The notes under the pieces were generated by a model. The model saw nothing but the letters and a program-made list of their open reading frames with translations, did not search any database and was not told the DNA's origin. From a virus, in the IMG/VR virus record IMGVR_UViG_3300001097_000002, positions 1-64,000 of that record: a stretch of DNA of 64,000 nucleotides, one strand, 5' to 3'. This document shows, in pieces, positions 5,955 through 60,551 of this stretch (the first letter of the stretch is position 1; every line of letters begins with the position of its first letter). The translations under genes were made by a program, and so were the position numbers.

Positions 5955-7559
5955 ATGGAAAGTATATACACACAACTTGATGATGACATACACAATATAC
6001 CTAACGTGTATAAAAAGAACGGTGCATATAATGGTTCCGCTCTTAACAGTAAAAAGAACAAACATATCATTGATAATGTTAAAGAAGTCACTGATTTCTT
6101 AAAAGACACTGTTAAGTTGGCTGAACGTATATATTGCATTGTCAATAAACTATACGAATATCCAACGTGTGCATGTGGTGGTAAAATTACACTATTCTAT
6201 AACGAAGGTGGACGCAAAGAATATGCTGATTATTGTTCGCGCGGTTGCCCTGCTAAACGTTCAAATAGCGCTGAATATGCTACTGGTCGCACACCAACAC
6301 AAGCGTCTAAAGATAAGCAAAAAGAAACAATACTTGAACGCTATGGGGTTGACAATTATTTTAAAGCGCCAGATTTTATCAAGGATAATTATAATGATGA
6401 ACTAGTAGCTAAGCGCGACGCTAATAGAAAAATAGCAGTACAAGAAAAATACGGAGTGGATAATGTATTCATGCTCGATAATGTTAAGGAAAAAATAAAA
6501 GACACCAATATAGACAAGTACGGTTTTCCTAACTACGCACAAATTAATATGAGTGATGATACACTTGAAAAAATTAATTCATATGACTATACGAGTGGAG
6601 TTAATAAACTATATAATCCTAGTCATATAGGACGTATGTTAAGCGTGCATAGTACAACTGTAATGGCGTATTACGAGCGTCTCGATATTGTACCAATAAA
6701 ACACAACGAAACAGCGTGTGAAGTGGTTATACGTGAGATATTAGATGCTTGTGGTGTATTATATGAGCAAAACTATACTAAGCTTTTAGGTGGTCGTAAA
6801 CACGTTGACTTCTACATACCGTCTCACAAACTAGCAATTGAATGTAATGGTTTATATTGGCATAGTGAAGCCATTCGCACCGATGTTAATTTCCATCAAG
6901 AAAAATATGAATTATGCACACAACAAGGTATACAACTTATACAATTTTGGGAACATGATATATACAATAACACTGACGTCATAGCATCATTTATCAAGAA
7001 TAAACTTGGATACAGTAAAAAAATATATGGTAGAAAATGTAAGACTATAAAGATTGACGCCAATACAGCATCGTTGTTTGTTATTGCCAATCACTTGCAA
7101 CCGTTAAAAACCAATAGTATTCATCAAGCATACGGTTTATATTATAATGACGAACTATGTTCGGTTATGACGTTTAATAATACAAACAAGCCCATATTAA
7201 GTAGATTTTGCACTAAGAAAAATCATGTTGTTGTCGGTGGTTTTAGTAAACTATTAAAACATGTAATATCCACAAACAACTTCAATACAATCACCAGTTA
7301 TAGTGACTGTATGTATAGCACCGGTAACATATACCATAATACTGGTTTCATTGATGTGACAAATAATGCAAGTGTATCTTATTACTATACTGATAACTTT
7401 ACTAGTTTAGTTAATAAACGCGTGTTTAGAAAAGACAATATTAAAAAAATGTATCCAATGACGTATTCACCTAATAAAACAGAGCGTGAAATGACCGCGG
7501 AGCTAGGTTTTACTCGAGTTAACGGTTGTATAATTAAAACGTGGGTGCTTGAACTGTAA
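5955..7559 (+). CDS. Homing endonuclease, Vsr-like (PD-(D/E)XK) with DUF723-type repeats
   Basis: 534 residues. The N-terminal part has a Cys cluster (CACGG ... CSRGC, about residues 74-96) and repeated ERYGVDN/EKYGVDN/DKYGFPN units typical of DUF723 DNA-binding modules. The nuclease core (about residues 280-350) has HVDFYIPSHKLAIECNGLYW followed by HQEKYELC and IQFWEHDI, the signature of very-short-patch-repair-like nucleases. A Vsr-fold homing endonuclease family was described with fractured, split-intein genes in phage metagenomes. A homologous enzyme follows directly. Probably a selfish free-standing endonuclease; target unknown. Confidence 0.8.
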   Translation: MESIYTQLDDDIHNIPNVYKKNGAYNGSALNSKKNKHIIDNVKEVTDFLKDTVKLAERIYCIVNKLYEYPTCACGGKITLFYNEGGRKEYADYCSRGCPAKRSNSAEYATGRTPTQASKDKQKETILERYGVDNYFKAPDFIKDNYNDELVAKRDANRKIAVQEKYGVDNVFMLDNVKEKIKDTNIDKYGFPNYAQINMSDDTLEKINSYDYTSGVNKLYNPSHIGRMLSVHSTTVMAYYERLDIVPIKHNETACEVVIREILDACGVLYEQNYTKLLGGRKHVDFYIPSHKLAIECNGLYWHSEAIRTDVNFHQEKYELCTQQGIQLIQFWEHDIYNNTDVIASFIKNKLGYSKKIYGRKCKTIKIDANTASLFVIANHLQPLKTNSIHQAYGLYYNDELCSVMTFNNTNKPILSRFCTKKNHVVVGGFSKLLKHVISTNNFNTITSYSDCMYSTGNIYHNTGFIDVTNNASVSYYYTDNFTSLVNKRVFRKDNIKKMYPMTYSPNKTEREMTAELGFTRVNGCIIKTWVLEL

Positions 7560-11616: not shown

Positions 11617-11850
11617 ATAATTCGACGCGAGCGTCTTCATCTTGCTTCGCATATCTAACTGCTGTCATATTAACTAACCAACTAACTAACTAACCAACTA
11701 TTGGCACTTAACATTTGAGAGTGACCATACTTCTATACTATAAAACATTATACTATTTGGTTATGCTAGATACTTATATTATCAAACACACATAACATAT
11801 ATATATCCCGGAGGCATAGGGTATAGAGAATTTCTTAAGCATATTGTATA
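11617..11850 (-). ncRNA. Candidate structured RNA, copy A
   Basis: Transcript predicted leftward from the promoter at 11857-11885. Its sequence matches copy B (51575-51846) in three blocks: the first about 55 nt of the RNA, a 65-nt middle block ending in GTGCCAATA, and a 3' GCGAAGC...GAAGA hairpin. The 3' stem is GACGC/GCGTC here and GATGC/GCATC in copy B, a compensatory pair change. The variable segment is closed by GTTATG/CATAAC. No T-run follows. It overlaps the 3' side of the 11441 gene region in antisense orientation only downstream. Function unknown; a regulatory RNA or an origin-associated transcript are both possible. Confidence 0.5.
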
Positions 11851-11900
11851 AATGATAGAATAACACCCCTGTCAAGCATTGTCAAGTAAAGATTTGTAAT
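11699..11900 (-). repeat. Inverted duplicate, copy A
   Basis: Reverse complement of 51525-51729. The first about 100 bases differ at one position, then about 35 divergent bases, then about 65 identical bases. Confidence 0.9.
11857..11885 (-). promoter_or_regulatory. Early promoter of RNA copy A
   Basis: On the minus strand TTGACA, 17-base spacer, TATTCT; identical to the promoter of copy B. Confidence 0.75.
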
Positions 11901-40460: not shown

Positions 40461-40574
40461 TTATTTCTGACTTATTAGTTTAATCAGTTTACGCCACACG
40501 TACATAGTTGTGTTTGGCAAGTGTAGTATTACTAAAATAATAACAATTGTTGCTATAATTATATAAGTATTCAC
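40461..40574 (-). CDS. Single-pass membrane peptide (37 aa), GTG start
   Basis: The GTG overlaps the uvsX stop (GTGA). Begins MNTYIIIATIVIILVILHL, one membrane helix, then a basic tail. Terminator follows closely. Confidence 0.5.
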   Translation of the reverse strand: MNTYIIIATIVIILVILHLPNTTMYVWRKLIKLISQK

Positions 40575-41680
40575 TCGTCATTACCTAAAAAATCATCGCC
40601 ACCATCCCAATCATCGCCACCACCTAACATAGTTTCATTAGTATCAACTTCGTCGTGAATTAGTTTACCACTGCTAATTTGATACATAGTTTCCACGTCT
40701 GAATGGAATTTCTCTTCTGCAAACAAAGGACCCCAGAATTTAGAACTATTGGTATCTTTGGCGCGCCACTTCTGGTCTTCTTGTACACCTTCAATAACTC
40801 GACTATACCAACCATTTGATGGTTTTTTAATATAACCTACATTCATGCCCACTTCTAGCATACCAGTATACTTATTCATACCACCGTCAAAACGCATTTC
40901 GATTGGAAACTTAGATTTCTCTTTACAGTAACGACTTTTCTCAACGTTCATAATCAAGTTAAATCCAGTAATTTCTTTACCTTCTTTTTCTTGTTGTCGT
41001 CCCATAATGAACACTTGGTCACTTGAATACATGATACCTGAACCACCAGAAACAACAGCTTTTGAAAACAGTTCCATTGTTTGATATACATGCGCTACCC
41101 CAACCATAACAATTTTCATGATACGCAAGTAAGGTGTGACAATACGTGTTAATGATTTTAGTTCTTTAGCACGTGTCATATCAGCTTTGGCTTTACCTTC
41201 TAGTGCATCCTCTGCTTCTTTCTTACTTGCTAAGTTACCTAAGCTGTCAATATAGATAAACACTTTCGCACCTGGATATTCTTTCTTAATCATATCAAGT
41301 TGTTTAACAAGGTCAAACTTCAAGTTTTCAATGTTAAGAAGTGGCATATGCAAGATACGTGAAGTATCAATATCCAAACTGTCAAAATATGATTTAGGTG
41401 TACCGAACTCACTGTCATAAAATAACATGATAGCATCAGGATACTTGGTCATATACGCTTTCGCGCACACGTTAGACAGTACACTCTTACCATGTTTACT
41501 AGGACCCGCAAACAATGTCAAACCAGGTTTTAGTCCACGTCTTAAACTACCAGAGAACGCTAAATTCATTAGCGGAATATCAAGTAGAACATCCTCTTCG
41601 TCAAAAAATACACTGTTATCCAAACCATCAGTGCCTTCAATAATACTGTTTTTCTTTAACGCTTTTAGCATACTACTCAT
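40571..41680 (-). CDS. uvsX: UvsX recombinase (RecA-like)
   Basis: 369 residues. Walker A GPSKHGKS (59-66), Walker B KVFIYIDSLG (138-147), MYSSDQVFIMGRQQ and VEKSRYCKEK in the core, and an acidic Gly-rich tail (DDWDGGDDFLGNDE) as in T4 UvsX, where it modulates interaction with gp32. Catalyses strand exchange for recombination-dependent replication. Lies 9 bases downstream of the polymerase C-terminal piece, so co-transcribed with it. Confidence 0.92.
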   Translation of the reverse strand: MSSMLKALKKNSIIEGTDGLDNSVFFDEEDVLLDIPLMNLAFSGSLRRGLKPGLTLFAGPSKHGKSVLSNVCAKAYMTKYPDAIMLFYDSEFGTPKSYFDSLDIDTSRILHMPLLNIENLKFDLVKQLDMIKKEYPGAKVFIYIDSLGNLASKKEAEDALEGKAKADMTRAKELKSLTRIVTPYLRIMKIVMVGVAHVYQTMELFSKAVVSGGSGIMYSSDQVFIMGRQQEKEGKEITGFNLIMNVEKSRYCKEKSKFPIEMRFDGGMNKYTGMLEVGMNVGYIKKPSNGWYSRVIEGVQEDQKWRAKDTNSSKFWGPLFAEEKFHSDVETMYQISSGKLIHDEVDTNETMLGGGDDWDGGDDFLGNDE

Positions 41681-41689: not shown

Positions 41690-42775
41690 TTAAAAGAATG
41701 TTTTTCTGTTATGTGATTTCTTCTTGCCTACGCTTGTATCCTCAGTGGTTACATTAGCGCTTGCAACTAGACCATTATCAATATTTTCTCCATCACCAAA
41801 CTTAAATATTGAACCTGAATGACGAATGTTATAATTTAATAGTTTAGTAAATGATTCAAGCGGACGCATAAACGTCACTTCAAACATATTTTTTCTGTCT
41901 ATGTAATTGTCAAGATTAAACTCCTTTGGTAATTCATCAGGATAACCAATTACAGTTGAGTTAAGTGGATTTCCGTCTACTAGGTCAAGGTACTTAATTT
42001 TACTGCCGCTTTTGATTATGGGGTGGTTCTTAGTATGGATATCACTACTTCTAACAAAGTTGTTATATGTTATAGCAGCGCGTACATGTTTAGGACAACG
42101 CTTGATAGGTTGATTGTTTTCGTCACTCCATTTCTCAATCCCGTTAACACCTTTTGGATATGCAATTTTATTAGGATGTAGGTTTTTATAATCATTTCTA
42201 AATCCCTTAACATACTTGCGCAAACCGTCCTCGTCGCGTGTAACCATATATTTAATACATTCTGTTAGGCTGTTACGTATGACCGCAGGTGTAGAAGTCC
42301 TATTGGTTTCAATACCAAGCATTTTAAGTTTAGGCTCTGTATAACGTACGTGCTCCATATCATATACGTTTAATATATAGTTCTTTTTAGCTCGGAAAAT
42401 AGCACAATCACAAATTGCCTCGCGTTTCATTATCAATCTGTTTTCCATACCGTTTAAGTATTCTGATAACTCACCGTAAGATTTTTCTATAAATGGTTCA
42501 ATATTATCATGTACGTATTCGTCAATTATTGTTATTACTTCATTAGTATCAGTATTGACTGGTAAACTGTCAACCAATGGTGCAACTGTAAAATATAGAC
42601 TATCAGTGTCACCATAAATTGTATAGTCTATATTATTAGTTTTAAATTGTTCATTTAAAAAACCATTAAGCTTTTTCTCCATATATTTAATTGCCAATTG
42701 ACCTGTAGACGTAACAGCTTCTGCTATCTCACGTTTGAAATAACGAAAGCCTTCATTTCCAATCGCACCATAACC
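41690..42775 (-). CDS. 43: DNA polymerase gp43 C-terminal piece, exon 2
   Basis: Begins GYGAIGNEGFRYF, the second half of polymerase motif B, right after the predicted intron. Motif C TIYGDTDSLYF holds the catalytic Asp pair; KMLGIETNRTSTP and KYLDLVDGNPLNST follow as in T4 gp43. The tail (VGKKKSHNRKTFF) would be the clamp-binding end. A TTG at 42778 is in frame, but it lies in the intron end, so splicing from exon 1 is the preferred start. Confidence 0.88.
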   Translation of the reverse strand, partial: GYGAIGNEGFRYFKREIAEAVTSTGQLAIKYMEKKLNGFLNEQFKTNNIDYTIYGDTDSLYFTVAPLVDSLPVNTDTNEVITIIDEYVHDNIEPFIEKSYGELSEYLNGMENRLIMKREAICDCAIFRAKKNYILNVYDMEHVRYTEPKLKMLGIETNRTSTPAVIRNSLTECIKYMVTRDEDGLRKYVKGFRNDYKNLHPNKIAYPKGVNGIEKWSDENNQPIKRCPKHVRAAITYNNFVRSSDIHTKNHPIIKSGSKIKYLDLVDGNPLNSTVIGYPDELPKEFNLDNYIDRKNMFEVTFMRPLESFTKLLNYNIRHSGSIFKFGDGENIDNGLVASANVTTEDTSVGKKKSHNRKTFF

Positions 42776-43076
42776 CAAGATATTAATTCTGAACCGATAA
42801 CTAACCTCAGAATAAAAGTATTTTACTACTTTTGCAACATGTCACCATGTTGATTAGACTATATCATGACCCATTCTCCAGGGCCCTCACCGTTTCCAAT
42901 ACTCTTGTATTGTACTCTACTAACTGCGATTAAGCGCTTTCGATAGTCGTTGCACGCATCCCGTAGGACTTTGTACATGATTGTCTTATTGTGGCTCAAT
43001 AAGAGTTCCCATGTTTAGATGAGTTATTCACTTACACATTACCATGTAAGGCAGCAGTCTTGTTTTACTTGCTTTT
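42776..43076 (-). ncRNA. Group I intron (IA2-like), no ORF, in gp43
   Basis: About 301 bases. P7/P3-side elements are typical: GTGCAACGACTATCGAAAGC (R region) and GATATAGTCTAATC (S region), then CAACATGGTGACATGTTG, almost the hairpin of the T4 td intron at the same place. The 5' exon ends CAGT, pairing with GCTG in the intron to give P1 with the U-G splice-site pair; the intron ends in G (CTTG). Removal joins ...KILANS to GYGAIGN, restoring motif B. Confidence 0.88.
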
Positions 43077-43181
43077 ACTGTTTGCAAGAATCTTGTAGGC
43101 GTATTGTAGTGCGTCTTCTCTGCTAACATCGTTCTCTAATTCAGCTATGCGTTTATTAATAGACGCAATATCTTTATACAT
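43077..43181 (-). CDS. 43: DNA polymerase gp43 exon 1 (start of the C-terminal piece)
   Basis: ATG 43181 begins MYKDIASINKRIAELEND and ends QYAYKILANS at the 5' splice site; KILxNS is the first half of motif B. Without splicing it stops three codons later. AAGGA lies 11 bases upstream. It overlaps the preceding small frame by 8 bases. Confidence 0.75.
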
Positions 43182-43290
43182 ACTTTAAATATTCCTTATC
43201 TTTTGATACGATTGGATTATCGTAATTAAATATGTAACGTTTATCAGTATATTGTTGATACATAATAAACTTAATATCACTTAATTCCAT
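43174..43290 (-). CDS. 38-codon polymerase palm segment in a third frame
   Basis: Begins MELSDIKFIMYQQYTDKRY and ends KDKEYLKYV. The ATG overlaps the stop of the middle piece by 14 bases and its stop overlaps ATG 43181 by 8. By position it is the palm insertion between motifs A and B. Either it is translated as a coupled peptide or two single-base changes broke one reading frame. Confidence 0.5.
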   Translation of the reverse strand: MELSDIKFIMYQQYTDKRYIFNYDNPIVSKDKEYLKYV

Positions 43291-43999
43291 CTTTAATCAT
43301 ATCCTCTCTGAGAGCATATAACTTTTGTAACTCTCTTTCGCTGTCTTTCATACCACTCTTAATAACACTACGAGTATCAAACAAGTTTTCCATAGTGGCT
43401 GCAATAACACCAATTTTGTCTTTTGAATACAATGTACCATTAGCAGCAAGGCAATAATCTTTTTCGTGTGCTATTTTGGTACTATATTTCATATCTATCA
43501 TACTGTTTAATATATCGTCTACGTGCTCCTTTGATTTCATCACAAGAGTTTCAGCGCTCATGTTTAGCATCATTATGATAGATGGATACAAGCTTTTTAA
43601 ATCGCCACTAACAACCCAGTCAGTGCGTCCTAATACAGGTTCTTTAACGTGACCACCCATATAACTTTCACCGCCCTCAGCGTATACTTTAGGAGGTATG
43701 ACAATGCTATCTCTATCAAGTCTAGCGTAAATCATATTGTCCCATGGTTGCACGGTTGCAAAAATATCACTTGGGTTACTACGGCTTACGTGTGCAAATG
43801 ATAACGCCACCTGAATAAAGTTTAGCTTGTTATCAAGTTTAGATATTAATACAGTATCAGTCTCGTTATAGTCAATAAATGTGTTGAAGCTGTCCTGTTT
43901 AACTTTTTGGTTAACATCATCATATAATTTCTTAAGCTGTTCAAAACTCAACTTGTCAAGATGGTTCTCGACAAGCATTTCATACTTTTTTAAATTCAT
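43277..43999 (-). CDS. 43: DNA polymerase gp43 middle piece
   Basis: 240 residues. Carries exonuclease motif III YNETDTVL (Asp48) and polymerase motif A GDLKSLYPSI (132-141), plus MSAETL as in T4 (ISPETI). The N-terminal 30 residues (LKKYEMLVENHLDKLSFEQL) are helical and may replace the join with the N-terminal piece, 5.5 kb away. No intein residues are seen at either end, so the parts probably assemble non-covalently, as in Aeromonas phages with split gene 43. Confidence 0.85.
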   Translation of the reverse strand: MNLKKYEMLVENHLDKLSFEQLKKLYDDVNQKVKQDSFNTFIDYNETDTVLISKLDNKLNFIQVALSFAHVSRSNPSDIFATVQPWDNMIYARLDRDSIVIPPKVYAEGGESYMGGHVKEPVLGRTDWVVSGDLKSLYPSIIMMLNMSAETLVMKSKEHVDDILNSMIDMKYSTKIAHEKDYCLAANGTLYSKDKIGVIAATMENLFDTRSVIKSGMKDSERELQKLYALREDMIKDGIK

Positions 44000-44020
44000 A
44001 TATCACCAATGTTAGATGTT

Positions 44021-44052
44021 AAAAAAGGGCACCTAATTATTATAGGCGCCCA
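44021..44052 (-). terminator. Terminator just before the polymerase middle piece
   Basis: GGGC(G)CCTATA pairs with TATTAGG(T)GCCC-type arms, followed on the minus strand by TTTTTT; ends the 44090 gene 22 bases upstream of ATG 43999. Confidence 0.7.
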
Positions 44053-44089
44053 TTAGTATAACATAAAATTTTATAATAGCAAGATATAA

Positions 44090-44350
44090 TTAGATTTGCA
44101 ATTTCAATTTATTAGCAGCACAATACGCACGCATAGCTTCATCAAGCAAAAGTTTATTATAACCAATCTCTATTGAATACATGTCATTTACTAGCACCAG
44201 CGGCACTAAATTACCTTTCATATCAACATTAACCTTTGCGATAGGTTTTATATTAGTATCAAAAGTTGTCTTAGTTATATATTTCATATCATGGTTTTTA
44301 TCAAAATGATATAGAATGATAAAATCATCTGCGTTTGGTTTGTAGCTCAT
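44090..44350 (-). CDS. Hypothetical protein (86 aa)
   Basis: ATG 44350 follows TTGGAGTATTAT. Small soluble protein, unknown; one of the genes inserted between polymerase pieces. Confidence 0.6.
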   Translation of the reverse strand: MSYKPNADDFIILYHFDKNHDMKYITKTTFDTNIKPIAKVNVDMKGNLVPLVLVNDMYSIEIGYNKLLLDEAMRAYCAANKLKLQI

Positions 44351-44377
44351 ATAATACTCCAAATAATAAATTAGTTT

Positions 44378-44992
44378 TTATAGATAGTCTACGATAGTAT
44401 TACCTGGCGTTCCGAACATAATTTTCGTATGTTGACCACCACCAAGTTCACGACTGTAAAAATACTCTGCTAGCTCTGGATACTTCTTAGGATAAGCCGG
44501 GTCGACATGTTCAGTGTTCAGTTTCTTACCTAGAATATCGCGTGCGTCATCAACTGTCTGTGCATACTTAATCGCTTCTGACATACCAATTGAGCGCACA
44601 ACAAATTTGAGCATACCGGCACTAGTTTCACCCATTGAACGGTCAAATTCATTAGATACCAAATCAGCCAACGCAATCGCGCCTTGCTTTGTTTGGTTTG
44701 TGAAACTAGCTACTGACTTACGACCATTTTTGTCTTTGTACAACTTACCGGCAATGATTTCACCGTTTTTTCGAATCAGTTTCCAAAACGTAATATTAAG
44801 CATATCTTCAGGACTATCAAAACCAGACCCTTTAATACCACCAATCTTAGCATATGAGCGTTGAACTAAGTCCCATACTACTAACTTGTGTTTTTCTTTC
44901 TTCTCGTTATCACCAATGATATTAATGTAACGTTCGTTAAGGTCGTTACCACTATCGCGTTCATGTAAGTAATCTTCAAATGCAACTGTCAT
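44378..44992 (-). CDS. Putative internal head protein with capsid-targeting-like leader
   Basis: 204 residues. AAAGGA precedes ATG. N-terminus MTVAFEDYLHE|R. The body (VVWDLVQRSYAKIGGIKGSG, FWKLIRKNGEIIAGKLYKDK, DRSMGETSAGMLKF) belongs to a family seen in large phages and may be GNAT-like, but this is uncertain. The final third (HTKIMFGTPG) could be another small domain. Confidence 0.65.
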   Translation of the reverse strand: MTVAFEDYLHERDSGNDLNERYINIIGDNEKKEKHKLVVWDLVQRSYAKIGGIKGSGFDSPEDMLNITFWKLIRKNGEIIAGKLYKDKNGRKSVASFTNQTKQGAIALADLVSNEFDRSMGETSAGMLKFVVRSIGMSEAIKYAQTVDDARDILGKKLNTEHVDPAYPKKYPELAEYFYSRELGGGQHTKIMFGTPGNTIVDYL

Positions 44993-45014
44993 TATTTATT
45001 CCTTTCTTAGTTTA

Positions 45015-45539
45015 TCAAGATAATACTGGATATTTATACTTTCCGACGTCCTGAATCCCATCAATTATATCAGGGGTCCGGCAAATACGATGGTGTCCAT
45101 TGTCAAAGTATTTAACGTCATAGTTATCAGGGAAGTTATCAAATACGGCTTTAACTCCATTGTAATCAATGACTTCATCATCTTTCTCAACCAATACAGC
45201 AACATCTGCCTTACTTGGAATGAATTTAGTATTGTCATCGCAAATCTCAGGACGGTTCAATGTTGGGTTAATACAAGGACTAATCAATACCGCATTATGT
45301 CCATATTTTACACTCATTGCGTTTGCAATGTAAGCGCCCATACTGTGACCAACAACAATAACGTCTTCATAATCACTCAAATCTTCAACCGCTTTACTAG
45401 CAATTGCGAGGGCGTTCTCCAAGCCATCATCATAGTCGATTGCAACAGCAACCTTATTAGTGAAAATGATATTAGTGAATTTGTCAGTATTAACACTACT
45501 GCCATATCCGTGAAAAAACAAAATGATAGAATCTTTCAT
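45015..45539 (-). CDS. Alpha/beta-hydrolase (YqiA-like esterase)
   Basis: 174 residues. LFFHGYGSS (oxyanion loop), VVGHSMGAYIA (nucleophile Ser), KDDEVIDY (Asp) and FDNGHHR (His) give a complete catalytic triad. Similar in size to UPF0227/YqiA esterases. Substrate unknown. AAGGAGAT before ATG. Confidence 0.82.
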   Translation of the reverse strand: MKDSIILFFHGYGSSVNTDKFTNIIFTNKVAVAIDYDDGLENALAIASKAVEDLSDYEDVIVVGHSMGAYIANAMSVKYGHNAVLISPCINPTLNRPEICDDNTKFIPSKADVAVLVEKDDEVIDYNGVKAVFDNFPDNYDVKYFDNGHHRICRTPDIIDGIQDVGKYKYPVLS

Positions 45540-45601
45540 TAACTTATCTCCTTAAAGATTTATTATAACATAATATATACTATGGCACAACCGTAGAACC
45601 C

Positions 45602-46006
45602 TTACAATTGCGCGTATGTGAAATCATCAAGTTCATCAATAACACATTGTAAACCATTATCTTTGAAACGGTTGTAAAAGTAATTAACTTCCTTTGAACT
45701 CAAATTATACCCTATGGATAAATCATGAAGAAACTTAGAAGTTAGTTTTGATTTCTTGGAATTATACTCGCACACGGCCGCTTTAAAGTCATCTTCAGCA
45801 ACGACAACTTCGCGCACTGAATAATCAATAACAGTTTCGCGGACAATGGCTTTTTTAACGCCTAACATATCATAGTAAACATATGCACCTTCAACCGTTT
45901 CGCGCATGCCTACAACTCGACCTAACTTGTAATAGTAGATGGTTGTGAACATTGACTGTGTTGGTACTGGTGTATCGTTCATTGTATATTTATCTAAGTT
46001 ATTCAT
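45602..46006 (-). CDS. Hypothetical protein (134 aa)
   Basis: ATG 46006 after AGGAGAATTATT. Residues 95-134 (SIGYNLSSKEVNYFYNRF) are helical and could form a helix-turn-helix. Unknown. Confidence 0.55.
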   Translation of the reverse strand: MNNLDKYTMNDTPVPTQSMFTTIYYYKLGRVVGMRETVEGAYVYYDMLGVKKAIVRETVIDYSVREVVVAEDDFKAAVCEYNSKKSKLTSKFLHDLSIGYNLSSKEVNYFYNRFKDNGLQCVIDELDDFTYAQL

Positions 46007-46066
46007 AATAATTCTCCTATCATTTAAACTGTTTCTCAAAACTACCACTAAATTATATAACAGCCA

Positions 46067-46103
46067 CAAAAAAGTGTAAAGCTATATTACATAACTTTAC
46101 ACT
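46067..46103 (-). terminator. Terminator (minus)
   Basis: AGTGTAAAG pairs with CTTTACACT; minus-strand T-run follows. Ends the 46116 gene. Confidence 0.75.
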
Positions 46104-46115
46104 CAATGATTTAAA

Positions 46116-46547
46116 TTAAATTGTTTCGACTGATTGATAATCAATAACAGTAATAGGTACAGGTTTAACTTCAAAGTATTCAGTACCGTCAGTATCAAAT
46201 CCGTAATAACTTTCGTAATACCCGTGACATAACAGATATCTACCACTAGGCATATGTTTTACTACTTGTTCCCAATGGTCACCGTCGCCTTCTCCGCCTT
46301 GACGCCTAACAATTTCGTATAACGTTTTTTCATCAAACGCACGTAACTTGTCTTCTAGCGCATCAGTACGTTCTCGCATTTCTACTCTATCGTCACCGTT
46401 AGTTTCAACAAAATCACTAAATTGATACATAAATTCGTCTGCAAAAAATACTCTAAGCTCATTCATAACATCTTTAAAAGTTTCAAATGATAATTCTTTA
46501 CCATGTACCATTTCTTCAAGTGTGCTGATAACGTCTTCGAATTCCAT
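46116..46547 (-). CDS. Hypothetical protein (143 aa)
   Basis: Helical acidic N-terminal part, C-terminal GHWEQVVKHMPSGRYLLCHG...FEVKPVPITVIDY. The end EVKPV-x-x-V/I is also found at the end of the 48756 protein (EVKPVTRVIYEY), suggesting a shared small domain. Confidence 0.6.
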   Translation of the reverse strand: MEFEDVISTLEEMVHGKELSFETFKDVMNELRVFFADEFMYQFSDFVETNGDDRVEMRERTDALEDKLRAFDEKTLYEIVRRQGGEGDGDHWEQVVKHMPSGRYLLCHGYYESYYGFDTDGTEYFEVKPVPITVIDYQSVETI

Positions 46548-46602
46548 AGTGTTTTCCTTTTTGATAAAATTATATGTTACTAGTTTTTAACTACATTGTC
46601 AA

Positions 46603-46950
46603 TTATAATATATAGCAATCTGCACTATCAAGATGATACTTATTAACCATTACTTTTTCCTGTATTACTTTATCCCATTTATCATGTACCCACATTTCAC
46701 TATACAGTTCTTCAAAGCGCGATTGTTGATAATACTCGCCACTGACTTTATCAACATATATGTTAAAGTCAAAATAACTGCCGTGTTCAAATGACTCTAC
46801 ATATTCCATGCGCTCGTCAAACGCATTGACATCATCCATGAGCAAATAGCAAACAGTTACATCATATGCAAACTTTGTGCGTAATACCAGTAAGACTTCT
46901 TGTGGTAGCATATATTCACGGTTAATAAAACGATTATATAATTCTCTCAT
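46603..46950 (-). CDS. Hypothetical protein (115 aa)
   Basis: Soluble, aromatic and acidic. Start lies just after the stop of the 50-residue gene upstream. Unknown. Confidence 0.6.
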   Translation of the reverse strand: MRELYNRFINREYMLPQEVLLVLRTKFAYDVTVCYLLMDDVNAFDERMEYVESFEHGSYFDFNIYVDKVSGEYYQQSRFEELYSEMWVHDKWDKVIQEKVMVNKYHLDSADCYIL

Positions 46951-46959
46951 AACATAAGC

Positions 46960-47112
46960 CTAAATGTTGGTGTATTGGGTAACAGTAACTTCAGCGGTTT
47001 CGTATTGATATAATTGCACCAAATCAATGCAACAACCATCCATCAACACAAATAACATATCATCACGTGCTAGTTCTTTGTTGTTTAAGAAATCGTTAAT
47101 TAAGTTTTTCAT
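46960..47112 (-). CDS. Small hypothetical protein (50 aa)
   Basis: MKNLINDFLNNKELARDDML start; its ATG overlaps the preceding TGA (ATGA), so translation is coupled. Confidence 0.5.
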   Translation of the reverse strand: MKNLINDFLNNKELARDDMLFVLMDGCCIDLVQLYQYETAEVTVTQYTNI

Positions 47113-47449
47113 AATGTTCGACACTCGTATTGTACATTTACAAGCTCTACTTTATCCCAATACTCCCAGTTTTCTGCTGTGCCATTAAGTCTATATAAGA
47201 AACCAAATGATTTAATGATAATATAGTTATAAGGCCCTTCCATTGATACGTCAATAATTTCAATGGTGTCAAGTGAAATAACATGATGCATATATTTACA
47301 TGCGTCTGTCATCAATTTCTTATCTCTTACATCAAACAGAACATTATTGTTTAAAAATTCAGCACCACTAAACTATGTTCAACAGACATTCTGGCGCACA
47401 CGATGTGACGTTGTTCTTTTGATAATCCTGCTAATTCATAACTACTCAT
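47109..47449 (-). pseudogene. Hypothetical gene interrupted by one frameshift
   Basis: ATG 47449 has the good site GGAGAATGATT and encodes 32 residues (MSSYELAGLSKEQRHIVCAR...) to a TAA at 47351. The -1 frame then continues as SGAEFLNNNVLFDVRDKKLM through to 47109. The second part alone would have to start at ATG 47312 with a poor site. A single base change near 47365 splits one gene of about 113 codons. Confidence 0.55.
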
Positions 47450-47489
47450 AATCATTCTCCAATAATAAAATTTATATTAAACAGTATTG

Positions 47490-47861
47490 CTAGTACGGAG
47501 TATATACTGTTATTGTTTTTTCATGCGGCATAACTCTAGTCCAATTACCTATTTCGTATGATAGTGTATCGTATATCCTGTTAGGATACGTAAACATATA
47601 ATATACATCAGTATGTATACATTGCACAACTAAACAATCCTCTTCATCATCATCGCTACCTATAGACTCATATTCAAACATATTCCAAAATGCTTCATAT
47701 AGTAACGAATGGTTAACAATAATATCATCAACGATTACCGTCTCAATTGTATCAGCATCATTTAAATCAATTTTTACAAGCGTGTTTAACAAATCAAGCA
47801 AGTCAATATTTTGCATTCTTTCATTTGCTAAAAACAAACCTAGTCTATCTAAAATATTCAT
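47490..47861 (-). CDS. Hypothetical protein (123 aa)
   Basis: CATTGGAGTTTTCATT leader. Acidic (DDDEEDC) soluble protein; overlaps the next upstream gene by 4 bases. Unknown. Confidence 0.6.
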   Translation of the reverse strand: MNILDRLGLFLANERMQNIDLLDLLNTLVKIDLNDADTIETVIVDDIIVNHSLLYEAFWNMFEYESIGSDDDEEDCLVVQCIHTDVYYMFTYPNRIYDTLSYEIGNWTRVMPHEKTITVYTPY

Positions 47862-48769
47862 AATGAAAACTCCAATGATAAAATTTTACGATAATAGAAC
47901 GGGTCAAATGCATCAATAATATCTGAGTAATTATCAATAGCAAACGCTCTAAAGAAACCACTTGCTAAGTCAGTACATACACGCATCAATGCCCACATAA
48001 AAGAGCTTCTAGCGTAATATTCTTTACTGTCATTTACTAGTTTTGGAATGATGCATCGTTCACTAGCAATCACGTAACACTCTTCTAATACAGTTTGCAC
48101 TTTTTCTAATTGTGTGAACTTATTCCATAAATGCTTGTAACATAACACTTCTCCGTTCTTCTGCATTTTATTATACATGGGTTTATCATTATGTGCAAAC
48201 ACTTCATGCAAATAATCATGTTCGATATATTTCTTAACACCATCATCAAAAAAATGTTCTTTAGTAACATTTAGTTTAGGCAACTTTTGCGCACCAAGTC
48301 GCAAGTCTGTATCAATTCTTTGCGTTCTGATTAACTCGCTCACTGTGTATGCGCTTGTTCCATATTGTTCATCATCAGTTAAACCACGTACTCGGTTTAA
48401 CTGTACGAGGTCACTCATATGCTTATCCCATTTACGCATACGTTGGTGGATATGACCACGTTTGATAATGTATAGCATAGTTGTATCAGCAAGGCTAATA
48501 GGCGCCCTGTAATAGGCGTTATATAGCTCTGCTAGTGTATTATCATATGCTACCAATAGTTCAATACGCTGCTCACCATCATTAAATGGGATAATGCTGT
48601 CTTTAGATATCTTATCCCTAAAACGATACGGAATGTCTTTTGGCATAACCACAACATCCAAATCAGCTTTTGTTCTATCATCAAGAACAGTAATCGCTTG
48701 GCTACCAACAACAATACCGTTATAAATACCGTTACTATGTAACAGCGCTTTTATATCATGAATATTCAT
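47858..48769 (-). CDS. Nucleotidyltransferase-fold phage protein
   Basis: 303 residues. The N-terminal IVVGSQAITVLDD...ADLDVVVMP is the GS...DxD signature of polymerase-beta-type nucleotidyltransferases, followed by a helical domain (HEVFAHNDKPMYNKMQKN) typical of phage DUF7275 proteins. The substrate (tRNA, protein or small molecule) is unknown. AAGGGTGAT before ATG. Confidence 0.7.
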   Translation of the reverse strand: MNIHDIKALLHSNGIYNGIVVGSQAITVLDDRTKADLDVVVMPKDIPYRFRDKISKDSIIPFNDGEQRIELLVAYDNTLAELYNAYYRAPISLADTTMLYIIKRGHIHQRMRKWDKHMSDLVQLNRVRGLTDDEQYGTSAYTVSELIRTQRIDTDLRLGAQKLPKLNVTKEHFFDDGVKKYIEHDYLHEVFAHNDKPMYNKMQKNGEVLCYKHLWNKFTQLEKVQTVLEECYVIASERCIIPKLVNDSKEYYARSSFMWALMRVCTDLASGFFRAFAIDNYSDIIDAFDPFYYRKILSLEFSL

Positions 48770-49037
48770 AAATCACCCTTGTTACTGGTTTAACTTCATA
48801 CCATTCTTGTTCGTTGAATATGATGTGTGTACCATTGCGTGTATGTTGATAATAGCCGTTTTGTCGATAATGTTTACCATCATATGTGATAATCATATAC
48901 GCTTGACTATCAGTCAATATTTCTATAGCCGTACATTCAGCGCGTTCAACCATGGTATCATTAATCATGACACCATATTCAACGCTTGCGTGAACTAGAT
49001 GTTTATTGAGTTTATCCAAAAATTCGTCCTGTAACAT
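48756..49037 (-). CDS. Hypothetical protein (93 aa)
   Basis: GGAGGG before ATG. Beta-rich C-terminus ending EVKPVTRVIYEYS, shared with the 46116 protein. Overlaps the nucleotidyltransferase gene. Confidence 0.6.
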   Translation of the reverse strand: MLQDEFLDKLNKHLVHASVEYGVMINDTMVERAECTAIEILTDSQAYMIITYDGKHYRQNGYYQHTRNGTHIIFNEQEWYEVKPVTRVIYEYS

Positions 49038-49048
49038 AATCCCTCCAA

Positions 49049-49084
49049 TAAAAAAGTGACATACGAAATCATCTTATGCCACAA
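49049..49084 (-). terminator. Terminator (minus)
   Basis: GTGGCATA pairs with TATGTCAC (one mismatch), then TTTTTT on the minus strand; ends the polymerase N-piece transcript. Confidence 0.6.
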
Positions 49085-49115
49085 TTATAACAAATTATTG
49101 ATGCGCTGTAAAGGT

Positions 49116-49520
49116 CTAAAACAAATCAACTATATTCTCAGAAAGTATTCTTGCGAAATCACCATCTAACGGTTTTGAGTTATACACCATATTGTGCTTG
49201 ATTTCAGCAATTGACAATCCTGACGGTTTAGATAGTTCTACTGCTAATGCGTTAACATTTCGCAGCGCAACATCATTAATTATATTATCCTCGTTTTCTG
49301 CGCAATACTCCCATAATGTCATCAGTAATTCAGTAGTCATCATTTCAGCATATGCTAAGTTTTTAAACTGATAAGACATAACAATTGCTCTGGCGGTTGG
49401 CCTATACATTGTAACCGATACACCACTAAAATTTGATAATTGCATCGCCACTTCTATTTGATATTGTAGGCTAACAATCAAGTCGCCATCATCAAACTTA
49501 ACAATTTCTTTAAATGTCAT
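49116..49520 (-). CDS. Hypothetical protein (134 aa)
   Basis: GGAGGAGAACA before ATG; the start overlaps the end of the polymerase N-piece by 11 bases. Helical. Unknown. Confidence 0.6.
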   Translation of the reverse strand: MTFKEIVKFDDGDLIVSLQYQIEVAMQLSNFSGVSVTMYRPTARAIVMSYQFKNLAYAEMMTTELLMTLWEYCAENEDNIINDVALRNVNALAVELSKPSGLSIAEIKHNMVYNSKPLDGDFARILSENIVDLF

Positions 49521-50709
49521 TGTTCTCCTCCAACATCATATCAAGTCTTGTGGCAACCATAGTTCTAATCCTTGCCCATCGGTCTTTTTCTGGTAGTTCT
49601 TCAATGTTTGTTTCTTCTGGTAGTTCTTCAATGTTTGTTTCTTCTGGTATATCATACACACCACAATACAAGTTCATTAGACTGTCTTTGTATTCGCTAT
49701 AATTTACTTTTTTCTCGCCAAGCTCAACATCAGAAATATGGTCAAGTGTATATCGTTCTTGCTTAGCCTTTGCGTACTGTTTATATAATGCCATATAGTC
49801 TAAATGAGTAAGACCAAAGATATTATATTCTAATGATGGTGCTCGCTTGTTTTCTTTAATAACGTTCTTACCGTATGCACTAAATGGACTTAGTTTATTA
49901 GTAACAGCGTTACCTACAATCTTTCTAGCGCGAGTTACAAGATATGGTATATCAAATAACACACCAAACCAACTAGTGATAAAGTCAAACTGTTCGTCTA
50001 CAAAAACGTTGATAAATGCCGTAATCAGTTCTTTCTCATTTCTACATTGTAGATACTCAATATCCGATTTTCCAGTATACCCTTTTAATCCAAGTCCGCC
50101 TGTTTTAACAATGTTATGTCCAACGATAACTTGATAGGTGATACTAAGAATTTCAGCAATTGCATCCTCGGGTTTCGGAAAGCCGATGTTCTGGTCAGCA
50201 TACGTAGAGTCTTTATACCAAACCATTTTTTTATAGAACGGGTCCATCACTTTAATATCAGCAAGATTATCGAAGTTTTTAATTTGTTTGTAAAATGCTT
50301 CTTTAGTTGGACCCTTACCTTCTTTATATACAACGGTGTCGAAATTCGTATATGTAAAACCATCACCATGATTAACTTCAATATCAAAGGATATCGTTTT
50401 ATACAAAGGTTCGTCCACGCTTACTTCTTCATACTCCTTTGATATAAATTGCTGTATAGGTGAAGTGTTTCCGAATATATTTTCCATTTGGTTGTTGTGT
50501 ACGAAATCATTAAGCTTATATATAGTATCAAATTCGATACGTTTTAACTTGTCACCATACAAACTAATATAGTCTCCACTTATACTTTTTGTGAATAGTT
50601 CATATGGATAGTTTTTTACAATCTCAATATGACGTTCACCATCTTGTATATAACGATGAAACAGCGTGTCGCCCATTGTTCCCACGAACGTATAATACCG
50701 CTTACTCAT
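49510..50709 (-). CDS. 43: DNA polymerase gp43 N-terminal piece (exonuclease part)
   Basis: 399 residues. Exonuclease motif I ISFDIEVNHGDG and motif II region FDFITSWFGVLFDIPYLV are present; the usual Asn of the NxxxFD motif is Phe or shifted. HLDYMALYKQYAKAKQERYT and DVELGEKKVNYSEYKDSL match the stretch just before motif III, which is encoded on the middle piece. The C-terminus ends with two copies of EETNIEELP from a 27-base tandem repeat (about 49590-49650) and a short helix. It cannot have full exonuclease or polymerase activity alone. Confidence 0.88.
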   Translation of the reverse strand: MSKRYYTFVGTMGDTLFHRYIQDGERHIEIVKNYPYELFTKSISGDYISLYGDKLKRIEFDTIYKLNDFVHNNQMENIFGNTSPIQQFISKEYEEVSVDEPLYKTISFDIEVNHGDGFTYTNFDTVVYKEGKGPTKEAFYKQIKNFDNLADIKVMDPFYKKMVWYKDSTYADQNIGFPKPEDAIAEILSITYQVIVGHNIVKTGGLGLKGYTGKSDIEYLQCRNEKELITAFINVFVDEQFDFITSWFGVLFDIPYLVTRARKIVGNAVTNKLSPFSAYGKNVIKENKRAPSLEYNIFGLTHLDYMALYKQYAKAKQERYTLDHISDVELGEKKVNYSEYKDSLMNLYCGVYDIPEETNIEELPEETNIEELPEKDRWARIRTMVATRLDMMLEENNDI

Positions 50710-51524: not shown

Positions 51525-51729
51525 ATTACAAATCTTTACTTGACAATGCTTGACAGGGGTGTTATTCTATCATTTATACAATATGCTTAAGAAATTCTCT
51601 ATACCCTATGCCTCTGGGATATATATATGTTTTATATGCATTCGATAATAATAGTAATGATGCATAACCAAATAGTATAATGTTTTATAGTATAGAAGTA
51701 TGGTCACTCTCAAATGTTAAGTGCCAATA
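51525..51729 (+). repeat. Inverted duplicate, copy B
   Basis: Reverse complement of 11699-11900; see that entry. The copies flank about 39.6 kb. Confidence 0.9.
51540..51568 (+). promoter_or_regulatory. Early promoter of RNA copy B
   Basis: TTGACA, 17-base spacer, TATTCT; start site predicted near 51575. Confidence 0.75.
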
Positions 51730-51846
51730 ATTGATAATACGCTTTATTTGAGTGATTAGCTACAAAAACAAGCTATAATAAGCTATATTTGAGTGATTAG
51801 CTATATAGTATAACGCGAAGCTAATGAAGATGCGAAAGCATCGAAT
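51575..51846 (+). ncRNA. Candidate structured RNA, copy B
   Basis: Predicted elements: hairpin around CCC-TATGCCTCT-GGG (51604-51618, loop differs by one base in copy A), stem TATGCAT/ATGCATA (51634-51666) where copy A has an unrelated stem, identical block 51662-51729, then two TATTTGAGTGATTAGCTA repeats (51745-51762, 51785-51802; not in copy A), and a 3' hairpin GATGC-GAAA-GCATC (51829-51842) that covaries with copy A. A 21-codon frame starts at 51583. It leads into another promoter at 51852, so it could also be a long leader. Confidence 0.5.
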
Positions 51847-51851
51847 ATAAG

Positions 51852-51934
51852 TTGACAACACATAATATTATTGTTATAGTTATTGAGTAGTTCGGAAAGG
51901 CAGTTTAAACAAATTTATATTATTGGAGTCTAAA
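51852..51934 (+). promoter_or_regulatory. Early promoter and leader, direct repeat copy 1
   Basis: TTGACA, 17-base spacer, TATAGT, then TATTGAGTAGTTCGGAAAGG and TTTATATTATTGGAGT before ATG 51935. About 60 bases are repeated at 52228-52290. Confidence 0.8.
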
Positions 51935-52210: not shown

Positions 52211-52295
52211 TTGACCTGTTCGTCATATATTGTTATAGTTATTGAGTAGTTCGGAAAGGCAGTTTAAACAAATTTACATTATTGGAGTAATTATT
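52211..52295 (+). promoter_or_regulatory. Early promoter and leader, direct repeat copy 2
   Basis: TTGACC, 17-base spacer, TATAGT, then the same leader as 51880-51930. Confidence 0.8.
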
Positions 52296-53666: not shown

Positions 53667-53802
53667 GGGTTGACTAATTTTTGGTTATATGTTAAATTAC
53701 TATGTAAATACGCACATAATCAATTACTATGAATGCCTTTGTCAATTCAACCCAAACTATAAAAATATTTCTTTTAGTAAATACAATAAAAAGGAATATA
53801 AA

Positions 53803-54792
53803 ATGGTTTACTACACTTACGAGATACAGTGCAATACAACAAACAAGCGTTATATAGGTTCGCGCATTACTGCAAACAGAGTTGATATTTTAGACGGGTA
53901 CTACACATCATCAAAAGTAGTTGCGCTATTAATAGAAAAACATGGCATTGATAATTTTAGTGTGATAGGAACTAAACTACACGACACACAAAAAGAAGCG
54001 ATTAAATATGAAAATATCCTGTTACTGAACGCTAAAAACAATAGGCATAAGTACTTAAATATTAATTTTAGCAGTAGTGTTAATGGAGCAGTAATTAAAA
54101 CACAAAGCCATATAAAGATTACTAATACGAAAACAAACGAATGTATATACTACCCTAAAAATGTTTCGCTGCCAAAAGGGTGGATAAAAGGTACTAACTG
54201 CAAACCACCTTCGAGAAAAGGGTTTAAGACGTATTATAATACTGAAACAGGTATTACACAGATACTTGGGCCACATGATGATAAAGTTGGTTACGTGCAA
54301 ATTACAGCTTATAAAAAGCTATTAAAAAATAAAATGAAATCTCAAAGGGGTATACGATGCGTATGGATAACAAATGGTACCAGTAACACTAAAATATACA
54401 AAGATGAGAAACCAAGAAAAGAATGGTGGTTTGGTAAAACGTCTAAGGCAACAAAGCATATTATAACAAACGGATATGAATCTAAGTGGACCAAACGTAC
54501 TGATGAAATTCCAGATGGATGGAAGAAAGGAAAACATTATAAAACGTTTAGTACTAAAGGTATGATTAGAATAACTGACGGATTATCAAACAAAATGATA
54601 AACTCCAGTGAAAAAGTACCGGAAGGATGGTTTAAGGGCAAAGCAAGTAAAAAAATATACATATATGATAATGTCACGTTTTTAAACAGAAAATTATTAC
54701 TAGAGTATCTTAATATATCTGCCAACACGTTTAACTACAATCAATTAAAAAATAAATACGATGGTATACTAGTCGTCAAGGAAAATATATGA
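53803..54792 (+). CDS. GIY-YIG homing endonuclease (Seg-like)
   Basis: 329 residues from ATG 53803 (AAAAGGA). Core YYTYEIQCNTTNKRYIGSR with DILDGYYTSS and YENILL (catalytic Glu candidate). The C-terminal 200 residues carry repeated LPKGWIKG, IPDGWKKGK and VPEGWFKGK units for DNA recognition, plus a final helix-turn-helix-like LLEYLNISANTFNYN. Its stop overlaps the uvsW ATG, so it has inserted directly in front of uvsW. Confidence 0.85.
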   Translation: MVYYTYEIQCNTTNKRYIGSRITANRVDILDGYYTSSKVVALLIEKHGIDNFSVIGTKLHDTQKEAIKYENILLLNAKNNRHKYLNINFSSSVNGAVIKTQSHIKITNTKTNECIYYPKNVSLPKGWIKGTNCKPPSRKGFKTYYNTETGITQILGPHDDKVGYVQITAYKKLLKNKMKSQRGIRCVWITNGTSNTKIYKDEKPRKEWWFGKTSKATKHIITNGYESKWTKRTDEIPDGWKKGKHYKTFSTKGMIRITDGLSNKMINSSEKVPEGWFKGKASKKIYIYDNVTFLNRKLLLEYLNISANTFNYNQLKNKYDGILVVKENI

Positions 54793-56564
54793 ATATAAAG
54801 ATACACTACTATAATGAAATATATATGCGTATTGAAACTGAACGTAGCATTGAATATGAATTGCGTGATGAATTTTCATTTTTCGCAAACGGTTATATGT
54901 ATAATAATAAGTTCAAGAGTGGACAATGGGATGGTAAAATACGCTTGTATAACGGGCGCGACAAAACGTTATACGTTGGTTTACTATTTGATTTATATAA
55001 GTTTGCTAAAAATAACGGCTATACAATCACTGTAAACGAGGATGATAAAAATCAATTCAAACCGTCCGTTGTACTTGATGACGCATGGATTGAGCGTTTT
55101 AATAATGGTATGTCTTTATATCCATTCAAAGAATATCAAGAAAAGGCTTTTATTCAGGCTATCAAATATAATAAAACGCTTATCCTAAGTCCAACAGGTA
55201 GTGGTAAGAGTTTCTTGTTATATGCTATCGTTCGTTACTTGATTGACTGTGGTCACGTGGGTGGTAAGAAGCGTATGCTCATTAACGTTCCAAATATTGG
55301 TTTAGTTACTCAATTACTATCGGACTTTAAAGAATACACCACTGATGGTTTTGATATCGAGAACTACATTACCCAAGCGGGTGGTGATAACGTTGAAGAT
55401 GATAGCAAACCAATTGTTATCAGTACGTGGCAGACTTCTATGCGTAAACCACAAGAATATTTTGAGAGTTTTACCGCATACGCGCTCGATGAAGCACACC
55501 AAGCAACTGCTAAAGAAATCACCAACATTATTGACAAACTTGAATTTTGCAAGTTTAAAATCGGTATGACTGGCACACTTGACGGCACCTCAATGCACGA
55601 ATTAGAAATGAGAGCGCGGTTTGGTAAACTGTATAGAGCCGCAACTACTAAGCAATTGATGGATAGTGGTGACCTTGCTAAGCTTGCAATTGATGCTAGA
55701 GTTATAATGTATGGCGAGGACGATATCAAAGCGCTACACAAGGAGATACGTGGCAAAACAGCGGTATTAAAGTATAAGGCTGAGATTGATTATATCGTTG
55801 AACACGAAGGTCGTAACAAATATTTAATGGATACTGCATTTGCCACTGATAAAAATACATTGATGCTTTTTAACTATGTTGATAAACACGGTAAGGTTTT
55901 ACTCGAGAAAATGATGCCTTTACAAGATGAACATTGCAAACGTGTATACTTCATATATGGTGGTGTTAAAGGCAACGAACGTGAAGAGATTCGACAATTG
56001 CTTGATAAAAAGCCTCCTGTATGGTACGACATTTATGTAAGCGACAATGAATTTATTCGCATTCGTGGGTCAAAAACTATTACATTAACAGATGGTAAAA
56101 CAGTAAGTGGTTACGATTTACAGCTTCACAAGAAATATGATATATGTAATGAATGGTTGAGGACTGTTATCGAGAACGAATTACATTACAATACCATTTC
56201 ATATAATGACGAAGTAAATTACAAATCCACAAAAACTGTTGTTAAACGCGGGTCATGCATTTTGTTAGCGTCATATGGTACACTGACCGTGGGTATTAAT
56301 ATTAAGAATTTACATACGTTATTATTATGTCACCCTGTTAAAGGTCAAATACGGTTATTACAAAGTATCGGGCGTATCCTACGTAAGACGAATGATAAAA
56401 ATGAGGTAACACTTATTGATGTTGTTGATAACTTAGAAAAGAAAACCGCTAAGAAAACAAGCAAAAATACGCTACTAAAACAGTTTTTAACACGTTTAGA
56501 AATATACGAAAAGCAAGAGTTTGATTACAATATTAGTAAAGTATCATTAGAAAATAACCAATAG
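54789..56564 (+). CDS. uvsW: UvsW DNA/RNA helicase
   Basis: 591 residues (T4 UvsW is of similar size). Walker A SPTGSGKS (134-141), DEAH at 234-237, GMTGTLDG motif III, and C-terminal SYGTLTVGINIKNLH and QSIGRILRK motifs (V and VI). N-terminal small DNA-binding domain (GQWDGKIRLYN). Unwinds R-loops and branched DNA and shifts replication from origins to recombination. Confidence 0.93.
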   Translation: MNIKIHYYNEIYMRIETERSIEYELRDEFSFFANGYMYNNKFKSGQWDGKIRLYNGRDKTLYVGLLFDLYKFAKNNGYTITVNEDDKNQFKPSVVLDDAWIERFNNGMSLYPFKEYQEKAFIQAIKYNKTLILSPTGSGKSFLLYAIVRYLIDCGHVGGKKRMLINVPNIGLVTQLLSDFKEYTTDGFDIENYITQAGGDNVEDDSKPIVISTWQTSMRKPQEYFESFTAYALDEAHQATAKEITNIIDKLEFCKFKIGMTGTLDGTSMHELEMRARFGKLYRAATTKQLMDSGDLAKLAIDARVIMYGEDDIKALHKEIRGKTAVLKYKAEIDYIVEHEGRNKYLMDTAFATDKNTLMLFNYVDKHGKVLLEKMMPLQDEHCKRVYFIYGGVKGNEREEIRQLLDKKPPVWYDIYVSDNEFIRIRGSKTITLTDGKTVSGYDLQLHKKYDICNEWLRTVIENELHYNTISYNDEVNYKSTKTVVKRGSCILLASYGTLTVGINIKNLHTLLLCHPVKGQIRLLQSIGRILRKTNDKNEVTLIDVVDNLEKKTAKKTSKNTLLKQFLTRLEIYEKQEFDYNISKVSLENNQ

Positions 56565-59870: not shown

Positions 59871-60551
59871 ATGAGCGGTTTTAGACAATACCTAAGGGAA
59901 AATGCAGACAACAATGAACAGTCACTTAACGAATCATCAATTACAAGATTTTTAAGACACTTCCAAAAATATGATGCTGCTATTATTACAGCTTTCCGCG
60001 ATGGTTTTACAAAACGCGAAAACAAAGCGCGTAATAAAGAGTTATTCTCAGCACTTTATGCGGCTGGCTACTCAATTACTCGAGTGGATGGTAGCTACAT
60101 TGAGAACTTTGATACTAAAGACGCTGTCACAGTAGCAGAAGAATCTTACGTTGTTGTCAACTACAAAGAAAAATCAAACTTTCATGCCACTATCAAAAAA
60201 CTTGGTATCAAATACGAACAGGATAGTGTATTACTTATCCACAGTGGTGATAAACCGTCTGCCGAATTATTTGGCACTAACAGAGATTCAGTCTGGCCTG
60301 CGTACGGTACAGGTGAAAAGACTGGTAAATTATCATTATCAAGTGGAAATCAATTCTTTACGCGCCTACGTAACAAAGAATTTGCGTTTCTGACTGATGA
60401 AGACAAAGAGGAAAAGCGCAAGCGTAATAACGGAAAGGTTAATGAAAACAATTATATTGATGTAGGCGATATTGCACCAACTTCACGTCTAAGTAAACAA
60501 GGTTGTGTTACAGTAGGCAATCGCATTTTAAGCGAATTAGGTCAAATTTAA
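59871..60551 (+). CDS. Putative internal head protein, DUF3293-like, with capsid-targeting-like leader
   Basis: 226 residues, AAGGAG before ATG. MSGFRQYLRE|N leader, a second LNE|S at about residue 20. Residues 30-175 (AAIITAFRDGFTKRENKARN, LYAAGYSITRVDGSYIEN) resemble DUF3293. The C-terminus is basic then acidic. Likely packaged protein of unknown activity. Confidence 0.65.
   Translation: MSGFRQYLRENADNNEQSLNESSITRFLRHFQKYDAAIITAFRDGFTKRENKARNKELFSALYAAGYSITRVDGSYIENFDTKDAVTVAEESYVVVNYKEKSNFHATIKKLGIKYEQDSVLLIHSGDKPSAELFGTNRDSVWPAYGTGEKTGKLSLSSGNQFFTRLRNKEFAFLTDEDKEEKRKRNNGKVNENNYIDVGDIAPTSRLSKQGCVTVGNRILSELGQI

Follow-up and report, generated by a model that had tools for sequence, protein, structure and literature searches.

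A T4-type polymerase gene in three pieces, with both active sites divided between chains, in a metagenomic virus record

Replicative DNA polymerases have to combine speed with accuracy and processivity, and in them the proofreading site communicates with the polymerising site. The T4/RB69-type enzyme, gp43 (the product of gene 43), usually comes from a single continuous reading frame, but not universally, since Aeromonas phage 25 lacks one. In phage 25 (NC_008208; PMC2988022, PMC2993671) the gene is broken at the tip of the fingers and the polymerase active site is spread over two chains: 43A stops at '...AIKKILASRGIKTDH', behind the first fingers helix, and 43B opens with 'MELELFRDFNDAELEYL...', ahead of the second. 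These two chains co-purify with polymerase activity (review of Edgell et al., PMC2988022). Gene 43 of phage 44RR is split likewise, and the intron of the split 43A/43B gene belongs to group IA2 in both phages (PMC2988022, PMC2993671). A cellular precedent, from an archaeon, is the family B polymerase of Methanothermobacter thermautotrophicus, which is split into separately encoded chains according to Kelman et al. 1999 as cited in PMC3984812. Here we describe a gene 43 in three pieces on the minus strand of virus record IMGVR_UViG_3300001097_000002, a linear fragment of 96,886 bases whose first 64 kb form the window analysed. We consider it likely that the gene yields three polypeptides which join non-covalently into the phage's replicative gp43-type polymerase.

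The pieces, F1, F2 and F3 (Table 1), align with consecutive residue ranges of RB69/T4 gp43 at E-values of 1e-20 to 1e-60. Three open reading frames (ORFs) and an intron stand in place of the usual continuous frame. F1 spans approximately residues 2-306 of RB69/T4 gp43, F2 corresponds to RB69 residues 301-494, and the second exon of F3 to RB69 residues 567-900 (E 1e-60; Pfam DNA_pol_B E 2.6e-7). Exonuclease motifs I-III and polymerase motifs A-C occur in the T4/RB69 order with every catalytic residue kept, as judged from sequence reading and alignment. Exonuclease motifs I ('SFDIEV') and II ('FDIPY') are on F1, exonuclease motif III ('FIDYNETD') and motif A ('SGDLKSLYPS') are on F2, and motif B ('KILANS' and 'GYG', on either side of the intron) and motif C ('YGDTDSLY') are on F3. 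The original prediction, made from the letters of the DNA, had divided the gene and its motifs in this way and had called the F3 product spliced; the ORFs, the Pfam matches and the RB69/T4 alignment agree with it, and the motifs can be read directly on the pieces to which it assigned them. Neither active site is whole on one chain, as it had also claimed: motifs I and II are separated from III, and motif A from B and C.

The intron in F3 matches the Rfam covariance model RF00028 with 61.8 bits against a gathering threshold of 50 (E 2.1e-15); it was seen in a scan of 451 bases and missed in a scan of 16 kb. We place the splice site after AACAGT, with the intron-terminal G at 42776, and the exons then rejoin in frame as KILANS-GYGAIGN; the exact boundaries are a reading of the sequence. 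The joined exons score 99 bits across the motif B junction against a polymerase profile. Phage 25 likewise has a group I intron in motif B without its own endonuclease (RF00028). Its intron lies about 12 nt further on (a sequence reading), a homing endonuclease gene stands between 43A and 43B, and the enzyme has two chains rather than three, with the exonuclease domain whole on one of them.

Comparison with 43A and 43B of phage 25 shows that F2 ends and F3 begins at the fingers tip, between motifs A and B. A small ORF of 38 codons crosses this gap (Table 1). F2 and F3 together contain 78 residues in the fingers region (our own count), against 44-69 in intact homologues. The small ORF is probably not part of the polymerase, because F2 and F3 already span the fingers. 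We considered it as a fourth polymerase piece and rejected it: the fingers are complete without it, and a homologue is absent from the compared loci.

Fingers splits also occur elsewhere. Our survey of polymerase loci in IMG/VR covered 174 records with a polymerase, the window's own copies included, and contained such splits in L016, L031, L034 and L050. Motif B of L034 also carries a group I intron (RF00028), and the fingers gap of L016 contains a homing endonuclease gene (phrog_314). The polymerase closest to that of the window, on L136 (IMGVR_UViG_3300011947_000002), is encoded by an ORF (4999-6927) that stops at the fingers tip, and a C-terminal polymerase half was not found on its 78-kb contig. 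The fingers gaps of L031 and L050 each hold a short ORF with a similar start, 'GDVVS.V...GEFVGK'. L050, a viral contig, additionally has an Rfam match to permuted/alpha transfer-messenger RNA (282-658, 110.8 bits). In L103, an intein-like sequence (GDSVTGDTLIKT... and ...ILVHNTDS) interrupts gene 43 (735-4843) close to motif C, and the two ORFs are about 1 kb apart.

The break between F1 and F2 falls inside the exonuclease domain. Gene 43 of Variovorax phage V45v66 (PV558790.1), an isolate with a complete, unannotated genome that is flagged UNVERIFIED in GenBank, is broken at the same point. An F1-like ORF of 339 amino acids is followed by a gap of about 0.3 kb with one 84-amino-acid ORF and then by an ORF equivalent to F2 plus F3; unlike in the window, the remaining polymerase is one piece without an intron. 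A third gene 43 broken at this point, with both a tail and a lead (described below), is on an 8-kb contig, IMG/VR 3300002304_000028 (L068). Its gap, unlike that of the window, holds a 286-amino-acid gene on the opposite strand, which matches PHROGs families of unknown function, has no match in Pfam and, judging from its start 'YVYAYI...YYIGKG', may be GIY-YIG-like. On the same contig, an intein-like segment and an HNH-like gene interrupt uvsX (4534-6822). No additional exonuclease breaks were seen in 55 more loci that we surveyed, and a published exonuclease-domain split or three-chain gp43 was not found in a literature search mostly limited to open texts. The original prediction held that the window goes beyond the known two-part gene 43. 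This stands for the exonuclease break, which has no published precedent that we found, and for the combination in three chains, which was not seen elsewhere and appears to be new. It does not stand for the fingers break and the motif B intron, which repeat the phage 25 layout, and the exonuclease break itself is recurrent (V45v66, L068), not unique.

F1 ends in a C-terminal tail (Table 1) that closes with a stop, and F2 begins with an ATG and an N-terminal lead of about 35 amino acids ahead of 'SFNTFIDYN'. V45v66 has counterparts of both, the tail 'RGEWHIP...LQEKDRWARMRGIIRDKL' and the lead 'MSDDELIRMYNRVDNRACQLSF'. With the F1 tail as query, V45v66 was the sole match in 50,697 phage records (tblastn E 1e-7), and the bacterial genomes scanned gave no match. 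Tail and lead together score 88 between the window and V45v66, against 26.5 +- 5.3 in shuffles (0/2000), and both are kept as protein in two genomes that differ greatly in base composition. Extra sequence at this site is absent from the intact polymerases of ACP17, X1, Mendera and L015 and from L136, and the intact relatives of L068, L021 (64% identical) and L207, have neither tail nor lead.

At the same point L167 and L034 have an in-frame insertion of about 40-55 residues and an unbroken exonuclease. Shuffle tests of the extra sequence gave strong support for L068-L167 (4/2000) and L034-L167 (2/2000), weak support for window-L034 (49/2000) and V45v66-L034 (54/2000), and a marginal result for V45v66-L068 (98/2000). 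The similarity of window and L068 is not significant (591/2000), and the remaining pairs are likewise not supported. We did not adopt a single homologous insertion at all five loci, as the test supports some pairs and not window-L068; with such mixed results, a single origin of all five is only tentative. The exonuclease site is one insertion hot spot with one clearly homologous tail/lead pair, that of the window and V45v66.

A quick tree without bootstrap, from 785 columns with the break regions excluded, places the window in a clade of seven rows (SH-aLRT 98) with L136, L015, V45v66, ACP17, X1 and Mendera. Split polymerases stand beside intact sisters (V45v66 and ACP17, 100; L068 and L021, 99; L016 and L057), and the fingers splits require at least five changes on the tree. 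We rejected the window and V45v66 polymerases as sisters: the constraint lowers the log-likelihood by 152 (approximately unbiased test, p 2e-37). The shared tail and lead have therefore either been transferred horizontally or been lost more than once.

We predict an enzyme that would be assembled as follows. Self-splicing of the group I intron would first complete F3. F1 would meet F2 inside the exonuclease fold, where motifs I and II from F1 and III from F2 would form the exonuclease site, and F2 would meet F3 at the fingers tip, where motif A from F2 and motifs B and C from F3 would form the polymerase site. Both breaks lie where chain continuity is dispensable: one at an exonuclease point that bears insertions in some relatives, the other where the fingers hairpin turns at its tip, which relatives also have interrupted. 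The tail of F1 and the lead of F2 may have arrived with the gene-splitting insertion, and they are most likely docking segments by analogy with NrdA of Aeromonas phage Aeh1. That protein is split by a mobile element (mobE), and its two chains assemble via interaction segments derived from the element (Crona et al. 2011, as listed in PMC3267527). Gene 43 of the window would likewise encode an essential phage enzyme split by insertion, but NrdA is a different enzyme, and the window's gap has no recognisable endonuclease.

AF2 structure models were made of single chains only. F1 alone was modelled well, as the N-terminal and exonuclease portion of the enzyme, with a predicted TM score (pTM) of 0.75 and RB69 gp43 as the best PDB match (E 5e-22, TM 0.67). 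F2 by itself was modelled poorly (pTM 0.44), and RB69 gp43 was nevertheless among its matches; a poor fold alone fits the expectation for an obligate partner. We infer expression of the pieces, their assembly and activity, the docking role of tail and lead, and an origin from a homing endonuclease or other mobile element. Assembly of the three chains is favored because the catalytic motifs are intact, 43A and 43B of phage 25 are active, both breaks recur, and tail and lead are conserved.

Several points weigh against a three-chain enzyme. It is known here from genes and not at the protein level. The F1 tail is modelled as a helix with a confidence below 50, and Pfam and PHROGs recognised no homing endonuclease among the 12 ORFs of the F1-F2 gap. 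Since the available copies of the locus do not differ from one another, selection on the pieces is not measurable within the lineage. As the record covers only part of the genome, an intact polymerase could be present elsewhere in it. In that case the split gene might be a decaying remnant, since a pseudogene would be expected to show several breaks, and replication would depend on another polymerase, encoded either by the unseen part of the phage genome or by the host. We regard this as improbable. All catalytic motifs are intact and none of the ORFs is cut off in the core of a domain. F2 and F3 each possess a start of their own, the intron is well formed, and the gene is followed by uvsX, as it is in relatives. 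The original prediction had allowed for a second intact family B polymerase, and the 96.9 kb of this fragment encode F1, F2 and F3 only, with no other family B (PF00136, PF03104) or family A (PF00476) polymerase. The complete genome of V45v66, with the same break site, also has no further family A or B polymerase.

Rejoining of the fragments seems less probable still. F1 would have to be linked to F2 by trans-splicing or a split intein, or F2 to F3 by ribosomal frameshifting through the 38-codon ORF. There is a well-formed group I intron nearby, and the small ORF runs without a stop through the gap between F2 and F3 and reaches into both genes, but fusion by this route needs two shifts in succession and would lengthen the already complete fingers by 38 residues. 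The original prediction saw no intein ends, and indeed F1 and F2 have no match to Hint or intein families at E<=0.1. At the break, the three phages with a split exonuclease differ, with Cys, Arg or Ser, and we rejected a split intein on these two grounds, the missing Hint matches and the lack of a conserved nucleophile. Tail and lead are moreover conserved as protein, with a stop and an ATG, across very different base compositions.

An assembly artefact, in which the block of 12 genes was wrongly placed in a normal gene 43, had also been raised by the original prediction; it is very improbable and largely refuted already. The record is a metagenome contig, and IMG/VR contig 3300023301_000007 (69 kb), 100% identical over 21.2 kb covering the entire locus, starts within 2 nt of it; the two may therefore share a sample and its data and not be independent. 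However, a third contig, 3300000525_001034, is 100% identical over the 6.4 kb covering F2-F3, the stop of F1 overlaps the start of the next gene, and the isolate V45v66 has the same exonuclease junction with a conserved tail and lead.

In addition to the three-chain enzyme, we can envisage a mobile gene-splitting cassette in T4-like phages, an idea that is possible but doubtful. Such a cassette would have a fixed insertion point in the gp43 exonuclease and two ends that encode the docking segments, a C-terminal tail for the upstream half and an N-terminal lead for the downstream half, and would move between polymerase lineages (window, V45v66). It would carry an endonuclease in some cases (L068) and cargo in others (the 5.5 kb of the window), and could heal in frame (L034, L167).

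As originally described, about 5.5 kb with 12 ORFs on the same strand separate F1 from F2. Included are genes for an alpha/beta-hydrolase (45015-45539) and, at 47858-48769, for a DUF7275 protein that has a distant phage 25 homologue. We rejected the gap genes as a known element, that homologue being the only match among the compared loci. A promoter-like site and a terminator-like hairpin lie just upstream of F2 (Table 1); promoter-like sites number 67, against 52.6 +- 8.0 in shuffles, and terminators 4, against 4.0.

The uvsX gene also directly follows gene 43 in ACP17, X1 and Mendera, where gene 43 is intact. Elsewhere in the window, a homing-endonuclease-like gene (53689-54792, plus strand; phrog_314 E 3.6e-9) overlaps the start of uvsW (54789-56564), a position reminiscent of segE, the neighbour of uvsW in T4. 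This T4-like phage also encodes a protein of the S-adenosylmethionine lyase family (59871-60551, plus strand; Pfam PF23780 E 3.7e-15). A 61-bp repeat (98%; 51869-51929 and 52228-52288) immediately precedes small genes, and the copies of a 209-bp repeat (93%; 51525-51733 and 11695-11900) lie about 40 kb apart; both are possible regulatory repeats.

Table 1. Positions in the window of the gene 43 pieces and of the features around them
Feature	Position	Strand	Evidence
F1: gp43 N-terminal domain and exonuclease motifs I and II, 399 amino acids	49510..50709	-	Pfam DNA_pol_B_exo1 E 1.6e-17
F1 C-terminal tail 'CGVYDIPEETNIEELPEETNIEELPEKDRWARIRTMVATRLDMMLEENNDI', about 51 amino acids after 'SLMNLY'	49513..49665	-	tblastn match to V45v66 tail
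F1-F2 gap: 12 unrelated small ORFs, 5.5 kb	44090..49520	-	ORF list, Pfam/PHROGs
Promoter-like TTGCTA-16-TATACT and terminator-like hairpin (44051-44027), just upstream of F2	44027..44082	-	Consensus matches only
F2, 240 amino acids: exonuclease motif III, motif A of the palm, first helix of the fingers	43277..43999	-	Pfam DNA_pol_B E 1.6e-12
38-amino-acid ORF (ATGTATAA), overlaps F2 stop and F3 start	43174..43290	-	Sequence
F3, whole	41690..43181	-	
F3 exon 1, 35 codons: second helix of the fingers, then the first half of motif B up to ...KILANS	43077..43181	-	Sequence; ATG at 43181
Group I intron, 301 nt, within motif B, without homing endonuclease gene	42776..43076	-	Rfam RF00028
F3 exon 2, 361 codons and stop: remainder of motif B, then motif C, palm, thumb and C-terminus	41690..42775	-	RB69 gp43 match
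uvsX recombinase, directly downstream of F3	40571..41680	-	Pfam T4_UVSX_C

If the three chains do assemble, the window would show the extent of gene fragmentation that is possible in an essential enzyme, with each site formed from two chains, and would mark two break points that have been used repeatedly in evolution. It would provide a natural three-part polymerase, the proofreading half of which could be exchanged or omitted in vitro. With the matched tail and lead it could be tested directly whether the docking parts of broken enzymes come from the mobile elements that break them.

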